A DNA stretch of 6,595 bases from Hyphomicrobiales bacterium (GTDB lineage Bacteria > Pseudomonadota > Alphaproteobacteria > Rhizobiales > Beijerinckiaceae): positions 1-6,595 of the forward strand of contig PXAW01000206.1 in the NCBI GenBank assembly GCA_003567055.1, in the 5' to 3' direction. Positions 3-6,595 of the stretch are shown here, in pieces. Below the pieces are notes generated by a model. The model worked only from the letters and a program-made list of their open reading frames with translations, searched no databases and was not told the DNA's origin. Every line of letters begins with the position of its first letter. The stretch's first letter is position 1. The position numbers and the translations under genes are program-made.

Positions 3-380
3 TTCGTTCAGGCCAAGCACATGGCTGCACGCGAGATCGCGCTGGCCTTCGGCGTGCCGCCGCTGCTGCTCGGCCTGCCGGGTGACGCGACGCATGCGAA
101 TTACGCGGAAGCCAACCGCGCCTTCTATCGCCAGACGGTGATCCCGCTGGTCAAGCGCACGGCACAGGCGCTCGCGCATTGGCTCGGGCCCGCCTATGGG
201 CGCGATCTCGTGCTGGAGCCGGATCTCGATGCGATCGAGGCACTGTCGCATGAGCGCGAATCCCTGTGGCGGCGGGTCAATGCCGCCGGCTTCCTCGACG
301 ATGACGAGAAGCGCGCAGCGGTCGGTTACGGCCGGCGCGAGCGCGATCACGGGCCGGACAGGGACGAGGGCTCCGAATGA
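3..380 (+). CDS. Phage/GTA portal protein, C-terminal end (partial)
   Basis: This is the C-terminal 125 residues of an HK97-type portal protein; the reading frame is open to the left edge, so the true start lies outside the window. The portal is the dodecameric ring at one capsid vertex through which DNA is packaged and to which the tail is joined. The visible part begins FVQAKHMAAREIALAFGVPP and includes LLLGLPGD, ANYAEANRAFY and the helix around PLVKRTAQALAHWL, which is the typical C-terminal region of this family. A Met at base 21 is internal and not the start. The tail after the helical part is charged (RRERDHGPDRDEGSE). The stop overlaps the next start as ATGA (377-380), pointing to translational coupling. 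The family call is by recognition of motifs; the GTA assignment rests on the gene order downstream. Confidence 0.9.
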   Translation, partial: FVQAKHMAAREIALAFGVPPLLLGLPGDATHANYAEANRAFYRQTVIPLVKRTAQALAHWLGPAYGRDLVLEPDLDAIEALSHERESLWRRVNAAGFLDDDEKRAAVGYGRRERDHGPDRDEGSE

Positions 381-580: not shown

Positions 581-771
581 TGCTGAAACAACGCGCGACG
601 CCGCCACGGCGTTCGGCTGTGCCGCGCCCGCCGAAACCGGGGGGCGGCAAGCCGCCGGGCAAGCAGCCTGGAGACACCTTCCGGGATTTCATCAGGACAT
701 TGGAAAGGCTCGATCGGGGCGCGTCGCACAAGCAACGCGCCCCGAACCGTTTCGGGGAGGGGGCACGATGA
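577..771 (+). CDS. Small basic Pro/Lys/Arg-rich protein, unrecognised
   Basis: A 64-residue open frame that I do not recognise. It fits exactly between its neighbours: its ATG overlaps the previous stop (577-580), its stop overlaps the prohead protease start (768-771), and GGGAGA at 565-570 lies 6 bases before the ATG. These three points support it as a real gene, although GC-rich DNA gives many chance frames. The first half is low-complexity and very basic (PPRRSAVPRPPKPGGGKPPG), probably disordered. The second half can form a short amphipathic helix (DTFRDFIRTLERLDR). A second ATG follows directly at 580. A positively charged small protein encoded beside portal and capsid could bind DNA or act in capsid assembly, but that is inference only. 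A longer frame running through this stretch in the prohead protease frame is an upstream extension of that gene and is less likely. Confidence 0.5.
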   Translation: MMLKQRATPPRRSAVPRPPKPGGGKPPGKQPGDTFRDFIRTLERLDRGASHKQRAPNRFGEGAR

Positions 772-1310
772 AGCTGGAATTTCCTGCAGCCCCCGAGATC
801 AAGCTCAACCCGCACGCCCCGGCGAGCATCACCGAGGAGGGGGTATTCGAGGGTTATGCCAGCCTGTTCGACCTGCCCGACCTCTCGCAGGACGTGGTGC
901 GCCGGGGCGCCTTCAGCGACAGCCTCGCACGGCGCGGCACCGGCAATATCCGCATGCTCTGGCAGCACGATCCGGCCCAGCCGATCGGAACCTGGAGCAC
1001 GATCCGCGAGGATGCGCGCGGGCTGTTCGTGCGCGGGAGGCTCAACCTCGCCGTGGCGCGCGCCCGGGAGGTGCATGCGCTGATGCGAGACGGCGCCATT
1101 GACGGTTTGTCGATCGGCTATCGCGTCCAGCGGGCGGGCAAGGATCGCCGACGCGGGCAGCGCATCCTCGAGAAACTCGATCTCTGGGAGATCTCCGTCG
1201 TCACCTTCCCGATGCTGCCGGCGGCGCGCGTGTCGCAGGTCAAGGGCGACCATCTCGCCGCCGCGATCCGCCGCGCGGCGGACCGGCTGTTTCCGCGCCC
1301 GGCCTTCTGA
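768..1310 (+). CDS. HK97-family prohead protease (peptidase S78)
   Basis: This 180-residue protein is a capsid maturation protease of the HK97 gp4/S78 type. It is packaged inside the procapsid, removes the N-terminal scaffold part of the major capsid protein and then digests itself. Recognisable elements in order are FEGYASLFDLPDLSQD with GAF (about 27-49), RMLWQHD with the likely catalytic His67, GLSIGY with the likely nucleophile Ser115, and LWEISVVTFPMLPAA with Glu141 as the probable third member. Length is typical for the family. The frame is open far upstream, but the ATG at 768 is chosen because it overlaps the preceding stop (ATGA) and has GGAGG at 756-760. It is directly followed by a terminator-like hairpin and then its presumed substrate, the capsid gene. 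Confidence 0.95.
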   Translation: MKLEFPAAPEIKLNPHAPASITEEGVFEGYASLFDLPDLSQDVVRRGAFSDSLARRGTGNIRMLWQHDPAQPIGTWSTIREDARGLFVRGRLNLAVARAREVHALMRDGAIDGLSIGYRVQRAGKDRRRGQRILEKLDLWEISVVTFPMLPAARVSQVKGDHLAAAIRRAADRLFPRPAF

Positions 1311-1341: not shown

Positions 1342-2601
1342 ATGAAAGTGAGCACCATGAGCGCACCGATCGAGACCAAATCCGCCGAGGCCGTCGAGGC
1401 TTTCGATGCCTTCAGCCGCGCCTTCGAGGCCTTCAAGGAGACCAATGACGAACGCCTCGCCGCGCTCGAGCGCAAAGGCCATGCCGATCCGCTGACCGAG
1501 GAGAAACTCGCGCGTATCGATGCCGGGCTCGACGAGACCCGTGCGCGAATCGATGCGCTGGCCCTGGGGCGTGCCCGCCCGCCGCTTGGCGGGATCAATC
1601 AGGGCGCGGGGCGCGATCACGACCCGCTTGTGCAGGAGCACAAGGCAGCCTTCGACAGCTATATCCGCAGCGGCGAGAGCGGCGGGCTGAAGCAGCTCGA
1701 AACCAAGGCGCTCTCGGCGGGATCGGGGCCCGATGGCGGTTATCTGGCGCCGCCCCAGGTCGAGAGCGAGGTGCTGCGCCGGCTCTCGGCGCTCTCACCG
1801 ATTCGCGCCATTGCCGGCAACCGGGTGATCTCGGGCGGGCTCTACAAGGTGGCGCATTCGGTCTCGGGCCCGGCCTCGGGCTGGGTCTCGGAGGCGGCGG
1901 CGCGACCGGAGACGGACAGCCCGACGCTCGCGGAGCTGAGCTTCCCGGCCATGGAGCTCTACGCCATGCCCGCCGCGACGCAGACGCTGCTCGACGACGC
2001 CATCGTCGATATCGACCAGTGGATCGCCGACGAGGTCGAGACCGCCTTCGCCGAGCAGGAGGGCGCGGCCTTCGTCAATGGTGACGGCAATGCCAAGCCG
2101 CGCGGCTTCCTGGATTATACGGAAGTGGCCGATGGCAGCTGGAGCTGGGGCAATCTCGGTTTCATCGCCACCGGTGTAGCCGATAATTTCCCGGCCTCCG
2201 ACCCGTCCGACGTGCTGGTCGATCTGATCTATGCGCTGAAGGCGGGCTATCGCCAGAATGCGACCTTCGTGATGAACCGCAAGACCCAGAGTGCGATCCG
2301 CAAGTTCAAGGATCAGCAGGGCAATTATCTGTGGCAGCCGCCGGCGGGGATGGGGCGCAACGCGACGCTGATGAATTTCCCCGTGATCGAGGCCGAGGAC
2401 ATGCCCGATATCGGTGCGGGCACGACGCCGATCGCCTTCGGTGATTTCCGCCGCGGCTATCTCGTGGTGGATCGCGCCGGGATCCGGATCCTGCGGGATC
2501 CGTATTCGGCCAAGCCCTATGTGCTGTTCTATACGACCAAGCGCGTGGGCGGCGGCGTGCAGGATTTCGCGGCGATCAAGCTGATGAAATGCGCGGCTTG
2601 A
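1342..2601 (+). CDS. HK97-fold major capsid protein
   Basis: This is the major capsid protein, 419 residues from the ATG at 1342, or 414 from the second in-frame ATG at 1357. The second start (MSAPIETK) is a real alternative, as neither has a strong Shine-Dalgarno; GTGAG lies just before 1357. Residues about 14-75 are helical and charged (FDAFSRAFEAFKETNDERLAAL; EEKLARIDAGLDETRARIDAL), like the scaffolding delta domain of HK97 capsids. A linker follows, then LETKALSAGSGPDGGYLAPP near residues 119-138, where the mature shell domain normally begins and where the prohead protease would be expected to cut. The shell domain shows SGWVSEAAARPETDSP, AMPAATQTLLDD, EQEGAAFVNGDG and PRGFLDY, and ends with VGGGVQDFAAIKLMKCAA. 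Length and motif order are normal. It is the last plus-strand gene before the inverted protease pair. Confidence 0.97.
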   Translation: MKVSTMSAPIETKSAEAVEAFDAFSRAFEAFKETNDERLAALERKGHADPLTEEKLARIDAGLDETRARIDALALGRARPPLGGINQGAGRDHDPLVQEHKAAFDSYIRSGESGGLKQLETKALSAGSGPDGGYLAPPQVESEVLRRLSALSPIRAIAGNRVISGGLYKVAHSVSGPASGWVSEAAARPETDSPTLAELSFPAMELYAMPAATQTLLDDAIVDIDQWIADEVETAFAEQEGAAFVNGDGNAKPRGFLDYTEVADGSWSWGNLGFIATGVADNFPASDPSDVLVDLIYALKAGYRQNATFVMNRKTQSAIRKFKDQQGNYLWQPPAGMGRNATLMNFPVIEAEDMPDIGAGTTPIAFGDFRRGYLVVDRAGIRILRDPYSAKPYVLFYTTKRVGGGVQDFAAIKLMKCAA

Positions 2602-2612
2602 GTTGAGGCGCC

Positions 2613-2645
2613 GGTCCCGTCCCGGTCATGCACCGGGGCGGGGTC
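2613..2645. terminator. GC-rich hairpin between convergent capsid and protease genes
   Basis: Bases 2613-2626 can pair with 2632-2645 across a 5-base loop (CATGC), giving a 14-pair stem that includes three G-T wobbles. It fills most of the 42-base gap between the capsid stop and the stop of the minus-strand protease, whose stop codon it touches. There is no T run on either strand, so it is not a classical intrinsic terminator. It could still stall polymerase or stabilise the 3' ends of both converging messages. Confidence 0.4.
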
Positions 2646-3501
2646 AATCAGCCCATTCGATCCATTCGTTGCTGCGGTCACGGCCGAGCGGCGGCAGGCG
2701 CACGGAGGTGGAGACGCTGGAATCGATGGCGCGCAATTCACGCATGCGCGCCTCGATCCAGCCGAGATGCGGGGTGAGCGGGGTGATCGCGGTGGAGCCG
2801 CCACAGGCCGCGCCGGAACGCTCGCTCGTCGCGCCGCTGGACCAGCTGACCAGACCGAGCAGGGTGAATCGGCCCGGATCGCCGCGCAGGATCGGGCCGC
2901 CGGAATCGCCCTGGCAGGCGCCGGCGCCGGTGCGCTGGGATTCGCGCTCGCTGTCGGATGCCATCAGCATCGTGTTGCCGATCTGCATTTCGCCGCGAAT
3001 GCGCAGGTACGTATAGCGCAGCTTGCGCGCCGTTTCGCGCTTGCCGAAGGCGGTGGTGCCGAAGCCGGCCAGCGTGACATCCTCGCCGACGGCGGGAGGC
3101 GGGACGCTGCGCAGCGGCAACGGCGTGAATTCCTGGCCGAGCGGCGCATCGAGCCTGAGCACGGCGAGATCGATCCCGGGCTGGCTGCGCGGCGGGGCCG
3201 TCCCGTCGAAACTCGGATGCAGCGCCTTGGCCAGAACGCCGCGCGTTATCGTGCGAAAACGCTGATCGAGGGCGAAGACGTCATAGGAGGCATCCGCGAG
3301 CAGGCAATGCGCGGCGGTGATGACGAGGTCCGGCGAGACGAGCACGCCGGTGCACATTTCGCCCTGGTCGCTTTCGATGCGCACGATGAAATCGCGCAAA
3401 CCGTCACGATTGGTCGCCTCGACACCGCGCACGATCGCTTCCGCCGGTGCGCCAGCGACGGTGACAAGGAGAATCAGGGAAAGGAACGCGCTTCGGATCA
3501 T
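2644..3501 (-). CDS. Secreted S1-family (chymotrypsin-fold) serine protease, downstream copy
   Basis: A 285-residue exported serine endopeptidase, read from the ATG at 3501. A signal peptide of about 22 residues (MIRSAFLSLILLVTVAG...AEA) is followed directly by IVRG, the equivalent of the activating IVGG terminus of trypsin. The catalytic triad is His65 (TAAHC), Asp111 (GIDLAVLRL) and Ser200 (CQGDSGGP). Cys50/Cys66 and Cys196 with the Cys in AACGG would give the conserved disulphides, consistent with a periplasmic or extracellular site. The residue six before the Ser is Gly rather than Asp, so trypsin-like cleavage after Arg/Lys is not expected. A C-terminal tail of about 30 residues extends beyond the usual final helix (HLGWIEARM). 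Upstream in-frame starts exist at 3531 and 3540 (GTG); 3501 is chosen for a normal signal peptide. It lies 39 bases after the other protease, probably in one transcript. No substrate or link to particle assembly can be read from the sequence. Confidence 0.93.
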   Translation of the reverse strand: MIRSAFLSLILLVTVAGAPAEAIVRGVEATNRDGLRDFIVRIESDQGEMCTGVLVSPDLVITAAHCLLADASYDVFALDQRFRTITRGVLAKALHPSFDGTAPPRSQPGIDLAVLRLDAPLGQEFTPLPLRSVPPPAVGEDVTLAGFGTTAFGKRETARKLRYTYLRIRGEMQIGNTMLMASDSERESQRTGAGACQGDSGGPILRGDPGRFTLLGLVSWSSGATSERSGAACGGSTAITPLTPHLGWIEARMRELRAIDSSVSTSVRLPPLGRDRSNEWIEWAD

Positions 3502-3540
3502 GCCTGCAATCTTGACCGCTTCACTTCCCATGACAAGCAC

Positions 3541-4299
3541 TTATCGCCACGTCACATGGCGATTCCAGCCCGCCGTGACATCTTCGATCCAGCTGCGCTG
3601 GGGACCGAGCAGGACGCCCTGACTCATGGCGCCACAGGAAGCGGAGCCTTCGCCGGTCGTCCAGGTGGTGATGGCGAAGACATCCCCGTCACGGCTGATC
3701 GGCCCGCCTGAATCGCCATGGCAACCGCCGCGCGGCGTGGCGCCGCCGCCGGACAGCCAGATCAGGATACTGCTCGGCCCATACGGCTCGATCACGGTGA
3801 GTTCGGCACTGTGGAAGCTGCCGCTGGTCGCGCCGCTGTCGTCAGATTCCTCGCGCAGACCGAAACCGGCCAGGCGCACCCGGGTCTCGGCGCGCGGCGC
3901 CCGCACTGACAGGGTGGCCGGCTCAAATCGCATCGGCAGGGGCTGGGCGACGCGGATCAGGGCGAGATCGATCGAGCGGCGGCGGGTGCGGATCGCGTCC
4001 GGATCGAATTGCGGATGCACCGCCTTCGCGCCGATTTCGAGCAGAACCGGCGTCCCGTCCTCGTCGCGGAAATGGACGCGATGTTCCGAAGCGCCGGTCA
4101 CGCAATGGGCGGCGGTGAGGACGACGTCGTCGTCGAGCATCACGCCCGAACAGACCGACCCACCGGAGCCGAGAACCATCACGCCCGCCCGCGCGAGCGG
4201 GGAGGTGTCCGCAGTACCGCCGATCACGGCTTTGGCCGGCCCGACCGGCAGCGTCAGCCCCAGGCAAAGGATGAGTGCGGCGAGGCAGGCGCGCGACAT
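3541..4299 (-). CDS. Secreted S1-family (chymotrypsin-fold) serine protease, upstream copy
   Basis: A 252-residue exported serine protease. The start at 4299 is chosen because it gives a clean signal peptide (MSRACLAALILCLGLTL...AKA, about 24 residues) and has GGAAG seven bases upstream; the longer frame to 4494 runs into the connector gene on the other strand and is unlikely. After the presumed cleavage the chain begins VIGG, an activating terminus with no propeptide. The triad is His65 (TAAHC), Asp111 (SIDLALIR) and Ser197 (CHGDSGGP). Cys50/Cys66 and Cys193 with the Cys of ASCGAM match the family disulphides. The pocket residue six before Ser is Gly, and the usual SWG of the substrate strand is TWT, so specificity is unlike trypsin and may be restricted. 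Positions of Cys50, His65, Cys66 and Asp111 are identical to the neighbouring protease, as is KAxHPxFD at 92-99, indicating tandem paralogues. It is first in a minus-strand pair and diverges from the connector gene across 31 bases. Confidence 0.93.
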   Translation of the reverse strand: MSRACLAALILCLGLTLPVGPAKAVIGGTADTSPLARAGVMVLGSGGSVCSGVMLDDDVVLTAAHCVTGASEHRVHFRDEDGTPVLLEIGAKAVHPQFDPDAIRTRRRSIDLALIRVAQPLPMRFEPATLSVRAPRAETRVRLAGFGLREESDDSGATSGSFHSAELTVIEPYGPSSILIWLSGGGATPRGGCHGDSGGPISRDGDVFAITTWTTGEGSASCGAMSQGVLLGPQRSWIEDVTAGWNRHVTWR

Positions 4300-4330
4300 T
4301 CGAGAGCTTCCGAAAAACGAGGTATCCATC
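4300..4330. promoter_or_regulatory. 31-base divergent gap holding both ribosome binding sites
   Basis: The gap between the minus-strand protease start and the plus-strand connector start contains GAGG at 4319-4322, eight bases before the connector ATG. It also contains GGAAG on the minus strand (4311-4307), seven bases before the protease ATG. These two sites fix both starts. The gap is too short for two full promoters and I see no convincing -35/-10 pair in it. A protease promoter would therefore have to lie inside the connector gene, and a connector promoter inside the protease gene. Confidence 0.55.
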
Positions 4331-4897
4331 ATGAACCCGATACGCGTCGACGGCCCCGCCGTCGAGCCCGTTTCGCTCGCCGATGCACGGGCGCATCTGC
4401 GGCTCGACGACACACATGAAGATGATCTGGTTGCGGCGCTGATCGAGGCGGGGCGGCTCCTGCTCGAATCGGCGACGCGGCTGATCTTCATCAATCAGAG
4501 CTGGCGGCTGATCCTGGAGGAGGCGCCGCGCGGCATGCGCCTGCATCTGCCGCTCGCCCCGATCATCGCGATCACCGAGATCCGCGCCATCGATGCGCAG
4601 GGTGCAGCCAGCGTGGTCGACCCGCAGGAATACCGGCTGCGCGCGGGGGCACAGCCGCCGACCCTGATGCTCGAAGAGAGCTTTCCGCGCCTGCCCGGCG
4701 GTATCGAGATCGATCTGGAGGCGGGGTTCGGACCTGCGCCCGAGAACGTGCCGGCGCCGCTGCGCCAGGCGCTGCGCATGCTGGTCGCGCGCTGGTTCGA
4801 GGAGCGCGGCGACGGGGTCGGCGAGCCGGAGACGGGGGTACTGCCGCCGGATGTGGCGCTGATGATCGCGCCGTATCGGCATCTGCGGCTGAGCTGA
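4331..4897 (+). CDS. Head-tail connector protein (phiE125 gp8 / gp6-like, GTA g6 position)
   Basis: A 188-residue protein of the phage head-tail connector group (phiE125 gp8 / HK97 gp6-like family). Such proteins form a ring under the portal after DNA packaging and receive the stopper. The N-terminal motif VEPVSLADARAHLRLDD followed by HEDDLVAALIEAGRLLLE is characteristic. Next come NQSWRLILEEAP, a beta-rich middle (LPLAPIIAITEIRAID, VDPQEYRLR), the EIDLEAGFG signature, and a C-terminal helix VPAPLRQALRMLVARWFEERG. The start has GAGG at 4319-4322. The frame stays open upstream through the antisense of the protease gene, but that extension is not credible as protein. It is the first gene after the inverted protease pair, and its distance from the capsid gene (1.7 kb) is unusual because in GTA clusters these genes are normally close. 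Confidence 0.88.
   Translation: MNPIRVDGPAVEPVSLADARAHLRLDDTHEDDLVAALIEAGRLLLESATRLIFINQSWRLILEEAPRGMRLHLPLAPIIAITEIRAIDAQGAASVVDPQEYRLRAGAQPPTLMLEESFPRLPGGIEIDLEAGFGPAPENVPAPLRQALRMLVARWFEERGDGVGEPETGVLPPDVALMIAPYRHLRLS
4347..4365. promoter_or_regulatory. Perfect 8-bp inverted repeat near the connector start
   Basis: TCGACGGC (4347-4354) and GCCGTCGA (4358-4365) form a perfect dyad with a CCC centre. It lies within codons 6-12 of the connector gene and about 50 bases upstream of the minus-strand protease start. It could be a protein-binding site for the protease promoter or a hairpin in the connector mRNA. In DNA this rich in GC it could also be chance. Confidence 0.25.
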
Positions 4898-4908: not shown

Positions 4909-5241
4909 ATGGAACAGCGCACGAAGATCGGCGCGCGCCGCAAACTCTTCGTCATCGAAACGCCCGTGGACGTTCCCGACGGCTTCGGCGGCGTCACCCG
5001 CAGCTGGCAGGCCGGTCCGGCGGTCTGGGGCGCGCTCGAGACCCTGCGCTTCGACGAGCGCCGCACCGCCGATCGGACCGAGGAGGTGGCGACGCATCGT
5101 CTGCGGCTTCGCCGGCGCACGCCGCCGCCTGCGGGATCACGCTTCGCACTCGGCCCGCGCCGCTTCGACCTGCGCGCGAGCGACGCCGCCGAGGCGCCGG
5201 CGCGCGATCTCATTTGTCTGGTGGAGGAGGTCAGGCCATGA
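4909..5241 (+). CDS. Phage head-tail joining / head closure adaptor (GTA g7 position)
   Basis: A 110-residue protein of the phage head-tail joining family (SPP1 gp16-like stopper). Such proteins plug the connector channel and provide the docking surface for the tail. Its compact beta-rich pattern is typical: IGARRKLFVIETPV, DGFGGVTRSWQAGPAVWGALE, EEVATHRLRLRRR, FDLRASDAAE, DLICLVEEVRP. The motif GGVTRSW...VWGALE is the strongest indicator. The ATG is preceded by GGGAGG at 4898-4903, only 11 bases after the previous stop. The stop overlaps the next gene's start as ATGA (5238-5241), indicating coupled translation. Confidence 0.88.
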   Translation: MEQRTKIGARRKLFVIETPVDVPDGFGGVTRSWQAGPAVWGALETLRFDERRTADRTEEVATHRLRLRRRTPPPAGSRFALGPRRFDLRASDAAEAPARDLICLVEEVRP

Positions 5242-5648
5242 GCGGTCCCATACTCGCCTTGCGTCAGGCCGTCCTGGCGCGCCTCACCGAGGATGGCGAC
5301 CTTGCCCAGGCCATGGGTGGCACGGTGCATCTCTATGATGAGCCGCCGCGCGCAGCGCCCGCGATCTATGCGGTGTTCGGCGATGCGCGGGTGCGTGACT
5401 GGCCGGGTGATCTGCAGGAGGCGCATGAGCATGATCTGCGCATCATCGTCTGGGCGCGCCCCGGTTCGCGGGCGAGCGCGCTCATTGCCGCTGACCACAT
5501 GGCGGAGGCGCTGCACGACGCGCCGCTGACGCTGACCGATCACCGGCTGATCAATCTGCGCGTCGTCTCATGCGAGATCGGGCGCGACGACCGCTCGGGG
5601 CTGGGGCGGGCGGAGCTGCGGCTGCGGGCGGTCACCGAGCGCCTGTGA
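5238..5648 (+). CDS. DUF3168 tail completion / tail terminator protein (GTA g8 position)
   Basis: A 136-residue member of the DUF3168 family (gp17-like tail completion proteins). These form the ring that caps the head-proximal end of the tail tube and stops its growth. Visible signatures are ALRQAVLARLTEDGDLAQAMGGTVHLYDEPP at the N-terminus, PAIYAVFGDARVRDW, then HEHDLRIIVWARPGSRASA and the closing LINLRVVSCEIGRDDRSGLGRAELRLRAVTE. GGAGGAGG at 5223-5230 sits seven bases before the ATG at 5238; the in-frame upstream start at 5214 is rejected because it lies inside the previous gene without such a site. Length is normal. Confidence 0.88.
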   Translation: MSGPILALRQAVLARLTEDGDLAQAMGGTVHLYDEPPRAAPAIYAVFGDARVRDWPGDLQEAHEHDLRIIVWARPGSRASALIAADHMAEALHDAPLTLTDHRLINLRVVSCEIGRDDRSGLGRAELRLRAVTERL

Positions 5649-5682: not shown

Positions 5683-6090
5683 ATGGCAGCACAGAAAGGC
5701 AAGGATCTTCTGGTGAAGATCGCGGATGGCGGCGGTTTCGCCACGGTGGCGGGTTTGCGCGCGCGGCAGATCAGTTTCAACGCCGAGCCCGTCGACGTCA
5801 CCCATGCGGATTCCGCCGGACGCTGGCGGGAATTGCTCGCGGGAGCTGGCATGCGCCGGGCCTCGATCGCGGGATCAGGGGTGTTTCGCGATGCGCAATC
5901 GGATGCGCTGATGCGGGCGCTGTTCTTCGATGGCGGGATCGGTGATTTCGAGATCGTGATCCCCGATTTCGGCGTGATCACCGGCGCCTTCCAGATCGTC
6001 GCGCTGGAATATCGCGGCGATCACGCGGGCGAGGTGACCTTCGACATGGCGCTCGAATCGGCGGGCGCGCTGGCATTCCAGGCAGCATGA
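5683..6090 (+). CDS. Major tail protein, TP901-1-type (GTA g9 position)
   Basis: A 135-residue tail tube protein of the TP901-1 major tail protein group, which stacks into rings to make the tail tube. The N-terminal pattern MAAQKGKDLLVKI is typical, followed by TVAGLRARQISFNAEPVDVTHADSAGRWRELL. The middle has GVFRDAQSDALMRALFF and the end IPDFGVITGAFQIVALEYRGDH with EVTFDMALESAGALAF. The start has GGGAG at 5671-5675, seven bases upstream. An ATG at 5661 is in another frame and not used. The gene stands 34 bases after DUF3168 and 10 bases before the gp10-like gene, so one transcript is likely. Confidence 0.9.
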   Translation: MAAQKGKDLLVKIADGGGFATVAGLRARQISFNAEPVDVTHADSAGRWRELLAGAGMRRASIAGSGVFRDAQSDALMRALFFDGGIGDFEIVIPDFGVITGAFQIVALEYRGDHAGEVTFDMALESAGALAFQAA

Positions 6091-6100
6091 GGAGGCGGAT

Positions 6101-6595
6101 ATGGTCAATCGCAGACGCGGTGAGACGGAACTCGTGCTCGGGGAGCAGCGCTATCGGCTATGCCTGACGCTCGGCGCGCTGGCCGAGCTCGAAGCGGCAT
6201 TCGGGGTCGATGACCTGGCAAGCCTCGCCGAGCGCTTCAATACCGGGCGGCTGGCGGCGGGGGATGTGATCACCATGCTGACCTGCGCCCTGCGCGGGGG
6301 CGGTCACGAGATGAGTGAGGGAGAGGTCGCGGCGCTGCACGGGCCGGACGGGGTCGGCCCGCTGGTCGAGGGCGCCCTCGCGGCGCTCGAGGCGGCTTTC
6401 GGGGTCGATGACCTGGCAAGCCTCGCCGAGCGCTTCAATACCGGGCGGCTGGCGGCGCAGGACGTGATCACCATACTGACCTGCGCCCTGCGCGGTGGCG
6501 GTCACGAGATGCGTGAGGCGGAGGTCGCGGCGCTGCACGGGCCGGACGGGGTCGGCCCGCTGGTCGAGGGCGCCCTCGCGGCGCTGGAGGCGGCC
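6101..6595 (+). CDS. GTA gp10-like tail protein with internal tandem duplication (partial, 3' end outside)
   Basis: An open frame from the ATG at 6101 (GGAGG at 6091-6095) runs to the window edge without a stop, giving 165 residues so far. The N-terminal part (ETELVLGEQRYRLCLTLGALAELEAAFG) and the following DDLASLAERFNTGRLAAGDVITML...GGGHEMSEGEVAALHG match the GTA gp10 family (Pfam names it a tail tube/tail chaperone protein). Its usual place is after the major tail protein and before the tape measure. Family members are usually a little over 100 residues, so this one is already too long. The reason is visible: residues 34-99 and 100-165 are two copies of a 66-residue unit with only four differences (Gly to Gln, Met to Ile, Ser to Arg, Gly to Ala). 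Whether the frame ends normally or continues into a third copy cannot be seen. Confidence 0.85.
   Translation, partial: MVNRRRGETELVLGEQRYRLCLTLGALAELEAAFGVDDLASLAERFNTGRLAAGDVITMLTCALRGGGHEMSEGEVAALHGPDGVGPLVEGALAALEAAFGVDDLASLAERFNTGRLAAQDVITILTCALRGGGHEMREAEVAALHGPDGVGPLVEGALAALEAA
6200..6397 (+). repeat. 198-bp tandem repeat, copy 1
   Basis: First copy of a 198-bp direct repeat inside the gp10-like gene, exactly 66 codons. It differs from copy 2 at 10 positions by my count, about 95% identity. The first 60 bases and a 65-base block near the 3' end are identical; eight of the ten differences fall between these blocks. Confidence 0.97.
6398..6595 (+). repeat. 198-bp tandem repeat, copy 2 (reaches window end)
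   Basis: Second copy, directly adjoining the first with no spacer and in the same reading frame. The window ends exactly as the unit ends, so a third copy or the normal C-terminus may follow. Confidence 0.97.

Follow-up and report, generated by a model that had tools for sequence, protein, structure and literature searches.

A tandem pair of genes for S1 serine proteases, here called protA and protB, lies in reverse orientation between the major capsid gene (g5) and the head-tail connector gene (g6) of a gene transfer agent (GTA) cluster in a Hyphomicrobiales bacterium. This position and orientation are conserved across a clade, the pair is under purifying selection, and it persists at the same locus in genomes in which no GTA genes were detected. 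Both proteins are predicted to be exported. We consider it likely, with a probability of about 0.7, that the function of the pair benefits the host cell and does not depend on the GTA particle. Since it is kept at the same chromosomal spot without the particle genes, it is likely to have a job of its own for the cell.

The window, which is the whole stretch of 6,595 nucleotides analysed here, is a single 6.6-kb contig from a genome that is 75% complete and in 641 contigs. The gene order is the 3' part of the portal gene, g3.5, a small open reading frame (ORF), the S78 prohead protease gene, g5, and then g6 to g10. The structural set of RcGTA-like clusters is therefore present in its order from portal to g10, with the contig ending inside g3 and g10. 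The genes g1, g2 and g11 to g15 are not present in the window, and the cluster is recognised here as RcGTA-like from its genes. The features are as follows.

3..380, plus strand: g3, 3' part of the portal protein gene (PF04860, 85.9 bits).
768..1310, plus strand: g4, S78 prohead protease, the maturation protease that belongs to the GTA itself (PF04586, 115.7 bits).
1357..2601, plus strand: g5, HK97-type major capsid protein, convergent with protA (PF05065 Phage_capsid, 304 bits; TIGR01554).
2613..2645: hairpin of 14 pairs where the 3' ends of g5 and protA face each other; it reaches into the protA stop codon and has no T-run.
2644..3531, minus strand: protA, S1 serine protease, predicted to be exported (PF00089, 99.6 bits; AxA^[IVLM] motif).
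3541..4299, minus strand: protB, S1 serine protease, predicted to be exported (PF00089, 73.4 bits; alignment A1; AF2 model and PDB matches).
4300..4330: 31 bp separating the start codons of protB and g6, which are transcribed divergently.
4331..4897, plus strand: g6, head-tail connector (TIGR02215, 166 bits; PF05135).
4909-5241, 5238-5648 and 5683-6090, plus strand: g7, g8 and g9 (PF05521, PF11367, PF06199; phrog_2115 for the set g7-g10).
6101-6595, plus strand: start of g10, cut by the contig end.

The basic reading of the earlier note on this DNA was upheld. Two complete minus-strand S1 genes fill the g5-g6 gap (ORFs at 2644-4299, both PF00089), both neighbours are intact, as the scores of g5 and g6 indicate, and the S78 maturation protease is encoded upstream. 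Two further observations concern the cluster itself. A 64-aa ORF at 577-771, between g3.5 and g4, is kept in the congeners G001, G002 and G003 (49-85% identity over parts) and gave no match in a PHROG search. A 198-bp unit in g10 is repeated in tandem at 6173-6594, up to the contig end (2.1 copies, 93% match); it is present in a single copy in the congeners G003 and G002, and the repeat may be a real duplication or an assembly end effect.

Both proteases scored far over the PF00089 Trypsin cut-off of 20.6 bits. The order of transcription is protB then protA, with a gap of 9 bp. The predicted signal peptide of protB is MSRACLAALILCLGLTLPVGPAKA and the predicted mature protein starts with VIGG; for protA, an alternative later start at 3501 would give a signal peptide beginning MIRSAFLSL. 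The catalytic His, Asp and Ser of protB are residues 75, 121 and 207 in the 262-aa reading from 4329, and their order, together with the chymotrypsin fold of the model, assigns the protein to S1 (PF00089). The two proteins (262 aa for protB, 295 aa for protA) carry trypsin-type Pfam domains only, with no CARD, ATPase or nuclease domain. Sequence comparison showed that the His and Ser motifs are kept. The AxA^[IVLM] motif was found in 114 of 122 protB and 55 of 55 protA sequences, and residue 35 of the model aligned with chain residue 16 in 43 of the 50 PDB entries listed. Both proteases would be exported by Sec, and a signal peptidase cut at AxA^[IV] would place the new N-terminus at residue 16 of the chymotrypsin fold. 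Because this N-terminus would lie exactly at residue 16, a zymogen step would not be needed, and the proteases are predicted to be active upon removal of the signal peptide. Residue 189, read as the sixth residue before the catalytic Ser, is Gly in 116/124 protB and 59/62 protA sequences and Ser or Ala in the remainder. Trypsin specificity for Arg/Lys, for which Asp189 is expected, was rejected. Judged from this one pocket residue, Gly predicts a preference for small or aliphatic residues over Arg/Lys.

The hairpin that the earlier note had placed on the capsid side is there, and stems of 12, 11 and 13 pairs occur at the same junction in three congeners. Its role as a terminator is unproven, because it has no T-run, its folding energy is unremarkable for a sequence so rich in GC (z -1.23; 200 shuffles included 23 that did as well or better), and a stem of at least 8 pairs was present at only 16 of 44 testable junctions (12/44 beat 57 or more of 60 shuffles). 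A canonical terminator was rejected on the first two grounds, and a consensus scan of the junction region found no terminator-like site with a T-run. A consensus scan of 2400-4700 for one promoter type found no sigma-70-type promoter; a promoter of protB would probably be located inside g6. In the GTA cluster of Caulobacter, anti-termination by GafZ allows polymerase to run past terminators (PMC11150451). Anti-termination of this type would account for the tolerance of a reversed, hairpin-bearing pair, and it predicts that producers silence the pair. In GTA-producing cells, the operon transcript would cross the pair as antisense RNA, and by analogy this read-through probably silences the proteases. 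Given such antisense RNA in producers, cells that make no GTA are probably the ones that express the proteases, which would there cut proteins of the periplasm or outside the cell. As a separate observation, the Methylobacterium loci L055, L062-L064, L067, L068, L070, L071 and L196 have an additional 0.8-1.7 kb separating protA from g5.

The distribution of the protease was surveyed with a profile of 25 protB-type sequences (A1), which was searched together with the window capsid in the same 149 family genomes, many of them drafts. A capsid match (E <= 1e-40) was found in 91 genomes, and 88 of these were taken as GTA-type by a cut of our own choice, at least 54% identity to g5, which excludes G006, G114 and G125. 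The A1 profile matched (E <= 1e-15) in 79 of the 88. Protease and capsid were on one contig in 78 genomes, and the protease was antisense and just 3' of g5 in all 78. The other nine genomes, from two genera, had no A1 match, and their g5-g6 gap measured 76-164 bp between match ends. Among the 61 family genomes without a GTA-type capsid, 34 had the protease and 27 had neither gene. Beyond the family, the A1 profile matched (E <= 1e-25) in 17 of 150 genomes of the order sample, from five families, the match in one of them (f35) being weak and away from the GTA; the capsid matched (E <= 1e-90) in 107 of these 150. In the class sample, A1 matched in 3 of 190 genomes, all from the family of the window. 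The best 80 of 373 confirmed stretches in named genomes comprised 60 that touch g5 and/or g6, all antisense, and 20 without a GTA gene. Named carriers among the matches listed include Microvirga, Methylobacterium, Bosea, Chelatococcus, Enterovirga, Ancylobacter, Xanthobacter, Azorhizobium, Labrys and Phreatobacter. In place of the recent insertion in one strain that would have counted against the reading of the earlier note, we found a cassette conserved at this junction across the clade (79/88 GTA-bearing family genomes; 78/78 same-contig cases; 60 of the best 80 of 373 named loci).

The congener G003 has the same arrangement on a 2.36-Mb contig, with a protB 88% identical. Its protB is named 'gene transfer agent trypsin-like serine protease [Saliniramus fredricksonii]' at NCBI, and the association of GTA and protease is thus already in the annotation, in one record name. 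The protB query matched none of 50,697 phage records. Of 25 viral-contig matches, 19 showed the same GTA arrangement and the other six had no GTA gene. A phage origin of the protease was rejected on these results. The nineteen 'viral' contigs from IMG/VR (L118-L136) are chromosomal GTA islands. In Bradyrhizobium (L113, L116, L117), a protease of the same group lies at another locus without the GTA flank genes and is possibly a copy that moved there, or a relative.

The 34 protease-bearing genomes without the capsid were rechecked with g9 and a looser capsid search, and 30 had no GTA-type gene beside the protease. In three of the exceptions (G034, G026, G065), other GTA genes adjoin the protease and the contigs end there. 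In G105, the capsid gene is split into parts about 38 kb apart, with protB and the run from g6 to the tail genes in place and the protease frame open; this cluster (L205 8006-17650, L206 860-3277) appears to be caught in decay. The 30 include closed or nearly closed genomes, namely G012 and G101 (one contig), G063 (two), and G104 and G111 (three). A g9-like match of 39-41% lies elsewhere in the genomes of G111, G156 and G172. G064 has a lone protease beside CxxCxxCC-PBP and a diverged capsid/tail cluster on another contig, and G182 has a protease locus without a GTA (L175) together with a GTA elsewhere. Flank queries were taken from L047, L048 and L073, and these flanks were afterwards found beside GTA-bearing clusters. 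Of the 31 protease loci without GTA genes, the known host flanks were present on both sides in 15, on one side in 10 and on neither in 6. At 24 such loci from 23 genomes (L086 and L169 being one), no GTA-conserved ORF, defined as kept in at least 5 of 14 GTA-bearing test loci, was matched outside the frames that overlap the proteases. The stretch L050 stops shortly after protA. The link to GTA function proposed in the earlier note found no support: the result that the note had named as its refutation, the same pair in relatives without GTA genes, was obtained, and many of these loci lie between the host genes that flank the GTA in relatives.

A protB tree of 96 scored rows, 20 of them GTA-less, requires at least 12 changes of the GTA state; the tree is a quick one with often weak forks (40/97 open). 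By these changes GTA losses were repeated, and recurrent GTA loss is already known (PMC10883770). One loss left a sequence fossil. At the Bosea psychrotolerans locus L073, homology to the GTA-bearing Bosea locus L065 ends on the left at query base 609, on the host side, and resumes at 618, which is the g6 start codon. On the right, 26 other loci have a g5 whose 3' end matches positions 11848-11905 (the best at 88% over 50 bp, E 3.8e-11); this capsid-end fossil reads LQDLAAIKRLTFSA and its counterpart in GTA-bearing Bosea reads VQDFAAIKGLKFAV. A further piece of L073 matches the start of the portal ORF in L061 (15297-15391; 75% over 109 bp, E 2.6e-13). With breakpoints at the g6 start codon and in the last g5 codons, the GTA was evidently deleted to both edges of the pair, which was left intact. 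A second Bosea locus (L077) shares the left breakpoint and has no g5 remnant. In Methylobacterium (two stretches upstream of protB and a third in WSM2598) and in Chelatococcus reniformis (two stretches), searches for GTA remnants returned only host-flank matches.

Purifying selection was estimated by NG86 dN/dS. For the window and two congeners, values were 0.13-0.17 for protA and 0.21-0.25 for protB; a GTA-bearing Bosea pair gave 0.08 and 0.19, and four pairs from GTA-less loci gave 0.015-0.18 and 0.09-0.26. The values for g5 were 0.06-0.10. By these sequence estimates, the proteases evolve faster than the capsid, yet are constrained with and without the GTA (0.015-0.26 overall), and the surmise that they are kept under selection holds. 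The GC content of the protease pair (0.673 and 0.692) lies within that of the GTA genes (0.647-0.725), and GC3 is likewise similar.

A tree of g5, g9 and g6 with 64 rows (39 with protease, 25 without) needs two changes of the protease label; it was midpoint-rooted, and 20 of 61 inner branches are open. The gain clade has 48 rows (SH-aLRT 88), and the loss clade, the two GTA-bearing genera without protease, has nine (SH-aLRT 100). With the other families placed at the base, a single gain followed by a single loss is the best reading of the two changes. At 11 junctions from other families (L152-L162), the g5-g6 gaps are 69-735 bp and no S1 match was found. Among nine outgroup GTA clusters with wide flanks, both host flanks were present in three (G047, G191, G264), one in four and none in two; the three have PBP-CxxCxxCC on the g1 side and the small gene-RR on the tail side. 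The same flank genes border the clusters of protease-bearing relatives, e.g., Bosea and G078 (both tail side) and Chelatococcus composti (g1 side). Since the GTA can occupy the same host locus in families without the protease, the GTA was probably present first and the protease entered an existing cluster. We infer a single ancient entry, in the ancestor shared by this group of Beijerinckiaceae/Methylobacteriaceae, Xanthobacteraceae, Labrys and Phreatobacter, followed by vertical inheritance. In L073 (7296-9754) and its relatives, the small gene and a conserved response regulator-histidine kinase pair border the tail side of the GTA. The record L091, 'Bosea sp. 117', groups with Ancylobacter in the protB and GTA trees, so its name may be wrong.

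The proteases could be accessory factors of the GTA, exported before lysis and trimming envelope or receptor proteins for release or uptake. The frequency of the protease in GTA-bearing family genomes, its fixed place there and the NCBI record name agree with such a role. However, co-occurrence (79/88 GTA-bearing versus 34/61 capsid-less genomes), although expected under this role too, is explained by shared descent, and neither the 30 genomes without an adjoining GTA-type gene nor the continued purifying selection at GTA-less loci fits it. The GTA-bearing clade that lost the protease has an apparently intact capsid-connector run, so the protease is dispensable there. A role in GTA release or uptake is therefore disfavoured and seems unlikely to us.

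We give still less weight to defence against phages or foreign GTAs, e.g., by shaving surface receptors, with GTA-less lineages retaining the proteases. Their retention with and without the GTA would suit this role, as would distant similarity to LmuA (E 8.6e-8) and Avs1b (3.4e-5), but the matches span the protease part only and reflect the common trypsin fold; a known defence protein was rejected on this basis. The predicted signal peptide is also at odds with intracellular sensors, and no defence gene was recognised among ten annotated neighbours. The fragmentary source assembly of the window could raise suspicion of a chance insertion or assembly artefact without function. That is hardly credible, and it was rejected, given the same arrangement on the 2.36-Mb congener contig, in the named loci and in every same-contig family case, and dN/dS well below 1. 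An independent service to the host cell remains the preferred reading.

The enzyme family and the kind of cluster are both known; the nesting and its fate are unusual. Like other RcGTA-like clusters of Alphaproteobacteria, this one has the portal, g3.5, S78 protease, HK97 capsid and g6-g10 in the usual order; unlike them, it has two antisense S1 genes splitting g5 from g6, whereas nine GTA-bearing relatives and 11 outgroup junctions have a g5-g6 gap of 69-735 bp without an S1 match. The proteases share PF00089, the catalytic His/Asp/Ser and, by model, the chymotrypsin fold with secreted bacterial S1 proteases. They differ in having Gly rather than Asp at 189 in most members, in their predicted activation by signal peptidase alone and in their fixed place at the GTA locus. 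Prophage morons are non-structural genes between structural phage genes. The pair resembles them in this respect; however, it lies in a GTA, has the GC of its neighbours, outlives the element and has no protB match among phage records, so the 'moron-like' label of the earlier note fits loosely. That note had also held that no S1 protease takes part in GTA or HK97 assembly. A caveat comes from Caulobacter, in which LypABC-mediated lysis, by which GTAs are released, depends on the trypsin-like domains of LypA and LypC (PMC13236601). These proteins, which belong to a CARD-NLR-like control of GTA release, share a trypsin-like peptidase domain and a GTA connection with the pair; as described there, they are multidomain (CARD/ATPase; nuclease), whereas protA and protB have a trypsin-type domain only plus a predicted signal peptide and are of neither the LypA/LypC nor the Avs1b multidomain type. 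Our search, with most subscription papers outside it, found no published account of a reversed S1 pair in a GTA cluster, and the word 'protease' is absent from PMC9836097.

A clade with a reversed, apparently non-structural gene in the GTA operon bears on the questions of why GTAs are retained and by what route they disappear. The retained proteases mark sites of past GTA loss, one of them with a sequence fossil. They provide a natural experiment in which the function of the particle can be told apart from that of its cargo, and a case in which antisense coupling within a GTA operon can be put to the test. More speculatively, and with rather low odds, the locus might act as a sense-antisense switch that divides the population, in which producers read through the proteases and silence them, package DNA and lyse, and non-producing siblings secrete the proteases and digest the protein set free by their lysed kin. 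If so, lineages that lose the GTA would keep the scavenging half as an ordinary secreted protease.
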